A DNA stretch of 38,543 nt from Chloroflexota bacterium (GTDB lineage: Bacteria > Chloroflexota > Dormibacteria > CF-121): positions 7,380 through 45,922 of the forward strand of contig VBIC01000107.1 in the NCBI GenBank assembly GCA_005881425.1. The letters run 5' to 3'. The notes under the pieces were generated by a model that was not told the origin of the DNA, ran no database searches, and was given only the letters and a program-made list of their open reading frames with translations. Below are positions 11,905-15,025 of the stretch, piece by piece. A program made the translations under genes and the position numbers. Numbering within the stretch: position 1 is the first letter of the stretch; each line of letters opens with the position of its first letter.

Positions 11905-12711
11905 ATGGGCCAGCAGGCGACGATGAACGCGCACGACTTCGAGAGCCACGTCCTCAAGCGGCTCACCGCGCTGCGTCCGGGGTGGAGCGTGAAGAGGGGA
12001 CCCGAGCCCTTTCAGCTCACCATCCAGCGTGGACGCGACGGCGATCTTCGCTTCAACCTCGACACCTTCTACCAGCAGTACCGGGAGCAGCCGCAGGCCC
12101 TCGACCGTCTCTTCGCGGCGCGCCTGCGCCGCCTCGACCAGGAGTCTGACGCCGAGGCCGACTTCGGCGCTCCCCTCATCCTTCCGGTGATCCGGCCGGC
12201 CAGCTTCCTCGAGTCGGCGGGCGGACCGGTCGTCTACCGCCGCATCCTGGACGAGATCGTCGTCGCCTACGCGGCGCATTACCAGCAGGGGATGCGCTAC
12301 CTGCTGCCCCAGGACCTCAGCGCCTGGGGTGTGGGACGCGACCACGTCGAGGTGATCGCGCTGACCAACCTGGCGCTCATGTTTCGGGCCGGGATGAAAT
12401 TCACCGGGCTGGAAACCGAGAACGGTACGCGCCCCCAGATGCTGATGCTGAGCTATGTCGACGCCCGCCCCTATGGCGGCGCCCTGATGCTCCTTCCCGA
12501 GGTCTGGGCCTGGCTGGAGGAGATGCTCGAGGACGTGCCGGTCGTGGGGGTTCCGGAGCGGGGATCGCTGATCGCCGCCGGCGAGCGGTCCCAGCTGATC
12601 GGGCGTCTGCGCCACGACGTCGAGGAGCGCCACCAGGTGGCAGCCTACCCGGTCTCGAAGCGCCTGTTCGCCGTGGTCGACGGCCGCATCCGCGTCTACT
12701 CCGGCCGCTGA
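11905..12711 (+). CDS. DUF1444 (YtpQ/UPF0354)-like protein
   Basis: The 268-residue soluble protein has the layout of DUF1444 proteins: an N-terminal region on which the family is named, then LPVIRPASFLE, VAYAAHYQQGMRYLLPQDL and a C-terminal YPVSKRLFAVVDG. No catalytic motif is evident and the function is unknown. ATG 11905 lies seven bases after TACACC (11892-11897), compatible with a leaderless start; a second ATG is at 11923. Its 3' end overlaps the convergent rhomboid-SDR gene by 16 bases. Confidence 0.7.
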   Translation: MGQQATMNAHDFESHVLKRLTALRPGWSVKRGPEPFQLTIQRGRDGDLRFNLDTFYQQYREQPQALDRLFAARLRRLDQESDAEADFGAPLILPVIRPASFLESAGGPVVYRRILDEIVVAYAAHYQQGMRYLLPQDLSAWGVGRDHVEVIALTNLALMFRAGMKFTGLETENGTRPQMLMLSYVDARPYGGALMLLPEVWAWLEEMLEDVPVVGVPERGSLIAAGERSQLIGRLRHDVEERHQVAAYPVSKRLFAVVDGRIRVYSGR

Positions 12712-14117
12712 CGGTAGCGCGGGGCCAGCTCCGGCACGTTGCCCAGCTGGAGCAGCCGGCGGCTCTGCTCCTGGAAGGCCAGGACGGCGGCAGGCTCGCT
12801 CAGCCCGGGGATGCAGATCACCTCACCGGCCTCGAGCGCTCGCAGTGACGCCGCCACCACGTCGGCCGGCTCCATCCGCGGACCCAGCCGGCTGGGATCG
12901 ACGCCCAGCCGATCGTGGAACTCCGTCTTGACGATGCCGGGGCAGCAGACCTGGATCCGAACCCCGCTCTCGCGCACCTCGCCGGCGAGTGTCTCGCTGA
13001 AGGCCACCAGGTAGGCCTTGGCCCCGGCGTAGACGGCTCGCGCGGGCATGGGATCGGCCGGAAGGGAGCCGGCGAAGGCCAGCAACGAGGCGACGTTCAC
13101 GATCGATCCCCGACCTCGCTCCACCATAGCGGGCAACGCCGCCCGCGCCAGGAGCGTCGAGGCCAGCACATGCAGGTCGATCAGCTCGCGGGCGCGTTCC
13201 TCGGGCAGGCGGACGAAAGGCATGTAGCCGCCGAAGCCGGCGCTGTTGACGAGCAGGTCGACAGGCCGTGCCCGCAGGCGGGCGGCGACCGCCGCCAGGG
13301 CGGTGCGGTCGGTCAGGTCGGCTGCCATCACCTCGACTGACGAGCCCGTTTCCTGCTCGAGCCGCCGGGCCAGCTCCTCCAGCCGCTCGCGCCAGCGCGC
13401 CACCACTACCAGGTCGTACCGCTCGCGAGCGAGACGCTCCGCGTAGGCCTGGCCGATGCCCGACGAGGCGCCCGTCACCAGCCCACTGAGCTCCTTGAGC
13501 AGCCAGGCCAGGATGAGCCCGCTGACGAAGCCGCCAACGTGAGCGAAGAAGGCGACTCCGCCGCCGCCCTCGGGGACGCCCAGCGAGAGGTAGGCGTTGA
13601 GCGCCTGGAGCGCGATCCAGTAGCCGATGAAGACCATCGCGGAGAGGCGGACCAGGAAGAACGGCACGATGAAGGTCAGCACTCGCGCCCTGGGGTAGAA
13701 GAGGACGTAGGCGGCGAGGACGCCGGAGATGGCGCCGCTGGCGCCCAGCGTGGGCACCTGTGAGCTGGGGTCGGCCGCGACCTGGAGCAGGCTGCCGGCG
13801 ACGCCCGCCACCAGGTAGAGCAGGATGTATTTCAGCTCTCCCAGCCGGTCCTCCACGTTGTTGCCGAAGATCCAGAGGAAGAGCATGTTGCCCCCCACAT
13901 GGAGCAGGCTGGCGTGCAGGAAGAGCGAGGAGAGCAGGGTTCCGAGATGGCGGCCGGCGGCGATGTCGGCGGGAATCAGGGCGTAGCGGCGGACGATCGC
14001 CGCGTCCATCACCGGGCTCTGAGCCACGTAGAAATAGATCGCCAGGTTGAGGATGATCAGCCCGTAGGTCAGCAGCGCCGGCCGCCGGGTCGGGTTCTCG
14101 TCCTTGAGCGGGATCAC
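12696..14117 (-). CDS. Rhomboid intramembrane protease fused to a short-chain dehydrogenase
   Basis: One uninterrupted frame of 473 residues encodes two complete domains. Residues 1-209 are a rhomboid protease: it starts IPLKDENPTRRPALLTYG, has HVGGNMLFLWIFGNNVEDRLG, the catalytic serine in TLGASGAISG (Ser127) and the catalytic His in FFAHVGGF (His193). Residues from about 210 are an SDR: VTGASSGIG (about 214-222), NSAGFGG, VNVASLLAF and the YAGAK catalytic pair. The last rhomboid helix (LILAWLLKE) runs straight into the first SDR strand (LSGLVTG) with no linker and no internal start that would keep that strand. It starts GTG 14117, overlapping the aldolase stop by GTGA. This topology would tether an NAD(P)-dependent oxidoreductase to the inner face of the membrane. 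The fusion is seen in sequence; its meaning is unknown. Confidence 0.88.
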   Translation of the reverse strand: MIPLKDENPTRRPALLTYGLIILNLAIYFYVAQSPVMDAAIVRRYALIPADIAAGRHLGTLLSSLFLHASLLHVGGNMLFLWIFGNNVEDRLGELKYILLYLVAGVAGSLLQVAADPSSQVPTLGASGAISGVLAAYVLFYPRARVLTFIVPFFLVRLSAMVFIGYWIALQALNAYLSLGVPEGGGGVAFFAHVGGFVSGLILAWLLKELSGLVTGASSGIGQAYAERLARERYDLVVVARWRERLEELARRLEQETGSSVEVMAADLTDRTALAAVAARLRARPVDLLVNSAGFGGYMPFVRLPEERARELIDLHVLASTLLARAALPAMVERGRGSIVNVASLLAFAGSLPADPMPARAVYAGAKAYLVAFSETLAGEVRESGVRIQVCCPGIVKTEFHDRLGVDPSRLGPRMEPADVVAASLRALEAGEVICIPGLSEPAAVLAFQEQSRRLLQLGNVPELAPRYRQRPE

Positions 14118-15025
14118 GTGGCGCGGGGAACGGCGTGGGAGAGGAGGCCGGCATCCGCCAGCAGCCTGCGTATCTCGTCTCGCTCCTCGGCCGCGGCGGG
14201 ACGCAGCGGCGCCCGCGGCAGCCCGTGCTCGAAACTCAGCTCCGCCAGGCCGGCCTTGAGGCGGGCGATCGCGCTGGCCCCGCTGAGCCACGCGGCCAGC
14301 GGTTTCAAGGCCGCCTGCAGGCGGCGGGCCGTGGACTCGTCGCCGCCTGAGGCCGCCCGGCGGATCGCGGCGCAGCCCGCGCCGGCGAGGTTGGCCAGGG
14401 CCGGTATCGCGCCGTCGGCGCCCAGCGCCATGGCCTCCGCCAGCTGCGCGCCCACGCCGGGAAGGAGGACCAGGTCGGGACGGCCCTGCCTGACCCGAGC
14501 CAGCTTGGCCAGGTTGCCCGAGGAGTCCTTGACGCCCGCGATCCTGGAATGGGCGGGAAGCCCCAGGAACCACTCGGCCGGAAGGTCGACGCCGGTGAGC
14601 TGGGGCACGTTGTAGACCAGGATCGGAATCGGACTCTCGCCGGCGACGGCCGTGTAGTGAGCGTGAAAGTCGGCGGCGACGAGGTCGCGGCGGTAAAGGC
14701 TCGGCGTGATGACCAGGGCGCATTCGGCGCCCGCGGCCGCGGCGGCCTGAGTCCGCTCGATCGTCTGCCGGGTCGACTCGGCGCCGGTGCCGGCGAGCAG
14801 GCGCAGCGGCGGCGGCAGGGCCAGGCGTAATGCCTGGATCCATTCGATCCGCTCCCGGTCGGAGAGCGCGGCCGCCTCGCCGTTGGAGCCCAGCGCCACC
14901 ACGCCGTCTATCCCCGCGTCACGGAGATGCTCGAGGAAGGGTCTCACGGGCGCGCCCAGGGTCCCGCCGGCTTCGAAGGGAGTGGCGATGGGCGGGAAGA
15001 CGCCCCGCAGCCAGGCCGGTCCCAT
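14114..15025 (-). CDS. DapA/NAL-superfamily aldolase (dihydrodipicolinate-synthase-like)
   Basis: The 303-residue barrel has the Schiff-base lysine in GVKDSSGN and the catalytic tyrosine in YNVPQ. The substrate loop reads GSNGE rather than the GTTGE of true dihydrodipicolinate synthases; GSNGE is seen in 4-hydroxy-2-oxoglutarate aldolases and relatives, so lysine synthesis is not assured. The enzyme would cleave or form a 2-keto acid by pyruvate aldol chemistry. ATG 15025 has TACACT exactly six bases upstream on the minus strand, predicting a leaderless mRNA. The downstream rhomboid-SDR gene is coupled by a four-base overlap. Confidence 0.9.
   Translation of the reverse strand: MGPAWLRGVFPPIATPFEAGGTLGAPVRPFLEHLRDAGIDGVVALGSNGEAAALSDRERIEWIQALRLALPPPLRLLAGTGAESTRQTIERTQAAAAAGAECALVITPSLYRRDLVAADFHAHYTAVAGESPIPILVYNVPQLTGVDLPAEWFLGLPAHSRIAGVKDSSGNLAKLARVRQGRPDLVLLPGVGAQLAEAMALGADGAIPALANLAGAGCAAIRRAASGGDESTARRLQAALKPLAAWLSGASAIARLKAGLAELSFEHGLPRAPLRPAAAEERDEIRRLLADAGLLSHAVPRAT

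Follow-up and report, generated by a model that had tools for sequence, protein, structure and literature searches.

The closest described counterparts of the protein analysed here come from two ordinary families, and the protein is a new domain combination of both. GlpG-type rhomboids (PF01694; PDB 2NR9, 2IC8) share with it, as indicated by a sequence match, a six-helix core, a Ser-His dyad contained in the motifs GxSG and AHxxG, and an HxxxN motif in TM2. The soluble domain of GlpG is situated at the N-terminus and is no metabolic enzyme, whereas in the fusion a whole SDR replaces the C-terminal tail. YqgP of Bacillus subtilis is a rhomboid with a soluble domain facing the cytosol, and this domain was shown to regulate cleavage (PMC7231995). 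Unlike the arrangement found here, the regulatory domain of YqgP is N-terminal and metal-binding, and its C-terminal domain is an extracellular TPR.

Membrane-anchored SDRs such as HSD17B13 carry a membrane-binding segment N-terminal to the SDR. HSD17B13 (PDB 8G89) is among the fold matches of the fused SDR; its type of anchor is, however, a short segment, whereas the anchor in the fusion is a six-helix protease. Nearest among solved structures, by sequence as well as by fold, are the NADPH-dependent SDRs 4BMV of Sphingobium yanoikuyae and 6ZE0, the bulky-ketone alcohol dehydrogenase of Comamonas testosteroni, both of which were solved as stand-alone enzymes without the membrane domain that the SDR of the fusion possesses.

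One frame for a rhomboid and an SDR

The gene is located in a window of 38,543 nucleotides, the whole stretch of DNA that was analysed, from an uncultured soil Chloroflexota represented by a metagenome bin that is about 90% complete. A single minus-strand frame of 473 codons (12696–14117), starting with GTG at 14117 and ending with TAG at 12698–12696, encodes a rhomboid (residues 1–207; 13497–14117, delimited by Pfam, the match of its relatives to about residue 208 and the structural model) and a classical SDR (residues 210–473; 12699–13490, delimited by Pfam, alignment and residue positions) with two residues between them. The initial annotation had read this frame as a complete rhomboid joined to a complete SDR, and Pfam agrees, assigning Rhomboid (PF01694) to residues 59–207 with an E value of 1.8e-34 and 119.4 bits as compared to a cut-off of 22.6, and adh_short (PF00106) to residues 213–403 with an E value of 1.8e-41, far above its cut-off. 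Moreover, Ser127, His193, TGASSGIG and YAGAK are all found at the residues given in that annotation. The start at 14117 is backed by the N-terminus IPxxDxNPxRR, which is conserved in the relatives; the frame is open upstream to 14843, and this extra stretch overlaps a DHDPS-family gene and is not rhomboid. This upstream neighbour (14114–15025, minus strand) overlaps the start of the fusion by 4 bases (GTGA). On the other side, a convergent gene of 268 amino acids (11905–12711, plus strand), conserved in all syntenic relatives, overlaps the 3′ end of the fusion with its own 3′ end by 16 bases. At 74–83% identity across the family the 268-residue protein is the best conserved of four neighbours compared, and no Pfam family matches it above cut-off, DUF1444 coming closest with an E value of 0.1. 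A scan for sigma-70-type promoters and terminators returned no match.

Sequence comparison matches the rhomboid part to GlpG. Its active-site residues Ser127, in GASG, and His193, in AHVGG, are conserved in the relatives, an oxyanion-type HVGGN contributes His73 and Asn77, and the structural model places the six helices of the core at residues 15–32, 71–92, 94–115, 126–140, 160–178 and 186–207. It is the sole rhomboid detected in this genome, so that its loss would leave no obvious backup. The fused rhomboid is not evolving faster than stand-alone rhomboids, as its branch length is 0.13 versus 0.16 for the stand-alone protein of G002, and its identity to the outgroup is 62% versus 55–59% for stand-alone rhomboids.

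Similarly, the SDR part has retained beta-1 and its motifs, and its C-terminus is as long as is usual. The cofactor motif TGASSGIG (215–222, of the type TGxxxGxG) is preceded by a complete strand beta-1 (210–215), and NSAG (291–294), Ser344, Tyr363 and Lys367 (YAGAK, 363–367) are those expected of a classical SDR. The fourth residue of the tetrad, an Asn in the LNV position, is His316 in the fused SDR. His is also found at this position in the close relatives L064, L047, L065 and L018, and more distant relatives have Asn; His316 is a trait of the subfamily, and the fusion did not bring it about. LNV is changed to LHV or IHI both in the fused SDR and in the majority of its close relatives. The basic residues that follow beta-2 (VARWR) and the likeness to 4BMV make NADPH the more likely cofactor.

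The locus in relatives and the origin of the fusion

How could an SDR come to follow a rhomboid in the same frame? The rhomboid is present, at 60–76% identity, in each of the 17 further genomes of the family that the search covered, one copy being cut by a contig end, and in these 17 genomes it matches the fusion only up to about residue 208. In 16 relatives the gene order is shared, consisting of a zincin-like gene, the 268-residue gene and the rhomboid gene, followed in most of them by the DHDPS-family gene and then genes for solute-binding proteins, and in none of these 16 is an SDR found at the locus. The initial annotation had named close relatives with two separate neighbouring genes and a gap between them as the observation that would expose a deletion or assembly error; none were found, the rhomboid standing alone in each case. 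Since the relatives have the rhomboid without an SDR at the locus, an insertion is indicated, and a deletion that joined two old neighbours was rejected. The rhomboids of the relatives end 9–14 residues after the last shared position, mostly with RPRxHPDPHPGYxGY. This tail, which is conserved in the rhomboids of one genus (L031–L045) and absent from the fusion, is rich in His and Pro and could bind metal. In G001 and G002, which represent two sister genera, the TAG of the rhomboid gene lies inside the end of the 268-residue gene, at the position occupied by the TAG of the fusion, from which we infer that the fusion stop probably marks the position of the ancestral rhomboid stop.

These comparisons are most simply read as the insertion of an SDR frame within the rhomboid tail, with the rhomboid start and stop position being kept. 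In the sequence the SDR lies between the rhomboid and the convergent gene and continues the rhomboid frame; both the short tail of the rhomboid and the start codon of the SDR are missing from the fusion. Several relatives of the SDR start five residues before VTG (MSKLAVVTG, MNKLALVTG, MSRLALVTG), indicating that hardly anything beyond the start codon was lost from the fused SDR. The nearest homologues, with 46–58% identity, are separate genes that occur here and there in several families and phyla; of the 17 family relatives only 2 have one. In the tree of the 13-member subfamily the SDR of the window belongs to no well-supported group, the nearest rows coming from several phyla. Duplication of an SDR from within the genome was rejected, the next best one being only 33% identical. 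Of viral origin there was no sign: scanning viral contigs with the single sequence yielded no relative, and an alignment scan yielded only SDRs at about 40% identity or less. The joins bear short repeats of the chance type and no mobile-element signature.

Alternatively, the SDR of a foreign organism could have been built into the rhomboid locus during assembly. The source is a metagenome bin, the locus of the relatives lacks the SDR and no close SDR is present elsewhere in the genome, all of which would be expected of such a chimera. It would, however, need two false joins, each in frame and each trimmed to coding ends, within a contig of 57 kb, and the gene order, which is conserved to the left and right of the fusion, argues against a chimera. 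The same gene order around the rhomboid in 16 relatives likewise indicates that both flanks of the insert are authentic. In addition, the base composition of the SDR part by codon position equals that of the neighbouring genes. An assembly chimera is, accordingly, quite improbable.

Junction, topology and possible coupling

At the junction (13488–13499, minus strand), as defined by the codons and the model, TM6 ends with Leu207, Lys208-Glu209 follow, and Leu210 is the first residue of the SDR strand beta-1. An AlphaFold2 model calculated from an alignment of 33 sequences (pLDDT 88, pTM 0.77) folds both domains well, with TM6 at 186–207 and beta-1 at 210–215 both well predicted on either side of the two-residue junction. 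The description of the fusion as linkerless thus comes close, the two residues Lys208-Glu209 being the exception. In Foldseek comparisons the SDR part superimposes on NADPH-bound 4BMV with a TMt of 0.93 and on the bulky-ketone reductase 6ZE0 with a TMt of 0.94.

Codons 208 and 209, AAG GAG, resemble a ribosome-binding sequence, and it could be imagined that an internal start yields a separate soluble SDR in addition, so that two proteins arise from one frame. AAGGAG precedes GTG214 by 12 bases and CTG213 by 9. Starting at 213 or 214 would, however, remove at least half of beta-1, whereas in the relatives VTG is preceded by at least five residues, and the rhomboid part would still be read into the SDR. 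Between ATG161, which is located inside the rhomboid, and the SDR, GTG214 is the only in-frame ATG, GTG or TTG, no standard start codon being present between 161 and 214. Such a second product is very improbable, and the earlier statement that no separate SDR start exists was nearly right: GTG214 is in frame and would cut off most of beta-1.

In GlpG both ends of the six-helix core are in the cytoplasm. By analogy with this family, both termini of the rhomboid part should be cytoplasmic, as it has six helices and the segment preceding TM1 is positively charged, which would locate the SDR where NADPH is. The tethering of an oxidoreductase to the membrane, suggested in the initial annotation, follows from this predicted topology; an envelope or lipid substrate for the fused SDR is a guess.

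Does the SDR control the protease? The initial annotation also considered that proteolysis might be coupled to the NAD(P) redox state, for which the analysis revealed no support. Occupancy of the SDR by NADPH or a carbonyl substrate could act through the two-residue junction on TM6, which carries His193, and in this way control cleavage, so that membrane proteolysis would follow the metabolic state. In the model TM6 enters beta-1 after two residues, making such a transmission geometrically possible, and YqgP provides a precedent for a rhomboid regulated by a cytosolic domain (PMC7231995). Against it stand the absence of a conserved fused relative and of functional context in what was searched, and the geometry of the SDR itself. 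In a Rossmann fold the N-terminal end of beta-1 lies opposite the cofactor site. A redox- or ligand-gated protease has, of all readings considered here, the slimmest chance of being correct.

The reading we favour, with moderate confidence, is a real lineage-specific fusion in which one chain comprises a working rhomboid and a tethered, independent reductase. Briefly, the gene would be translated as one polypeptide, the rhomboid core would remain an active intramembrane serine protease, and the SDR would hang on the cytoplasmic face of the membrane directly under TM6, with NADPH available, acting as a ketone or lipid reductase tethered to the membrane, with a carbonyl compound that is bulky or hydrophobic as its substrate. 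The gain, if any, would be the location of the reductase. Protease and reductase activities are probably mutually independent, no evidence for coupling having been found.

Occurrence and meaning of the fusion

Searches of the family, the class and the phylum, covering approximately 450–510 distinct genomes (573 with repeats), revealed no second fusion; as the phylum search scored four candidates per genome and listed matches with an E value of 1e-50 or better, a diverged fusion could be missed in it. A scan of 84,980 species gave none among its 80 best loci, none appeared when 118 rhomboid and 104 SDR loci were checked frame by frame, and 72,556 plasmids contained neither a fusion nor any place covering 80% of the query. 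Loci of Microcoleus with both genes were inspected and are not fusions, the genes having a frame each, at a distance of about 2 kb or more. No independent genome in the collections searched has the same domain pair, which hence does not count as an established architecture. Furthermore, no description of a rhomboid-SDR pair was found in the open-access literature, and a 2025 review of rhomboids does not mention a dehydrogenase. The claim that the pair is without described counterpart therefore stands for every collection searched. A rhomboid like those of the window's family, with 68% identity, occurs on a 4.4-kb contig (L225, G092:C58) in a genome of another family that has 9% contamination; the equal length of the L062 record suggests that this contig was mis-binned.

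The occurrence of the fusion in one genome only, a metagenome bin, with no conserved fused relative in the searched sets, is the counterweight to the favoured reading. It could also mean that the fusion is real and the SDR a passenger, which lost its start, is tolerated as the tail of a working rhomboid, contributes nothing and will decay. A fusion that is a singleton in all searches, and an SDR whose relatives are sporadic accessory genes present in 2 of 17 family relatives, would suit this explanation. Yet the SDR has kept every motif and an open frame of full length, it is composed like a coding gene of the host and the AlphaFold2 model folds well, so that we regard a passenger as unlikely. 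The gene seems to be a genuine fusion of which, so far, a single case is known.

As a singleton it is a curiosity for now. If it is made as one chain, nature would have attached a metabolic enzyme directly to the last helix of an intramembrane protease, and this in the one rhomboid detected in the genome, and the cytoplasmic end of TM6 would be shown to tolerate a folded domain of large size nearly without a linker. The protein would then be a ready-made construct for asking whether rhomboids can be controlled from the cytoplasm.
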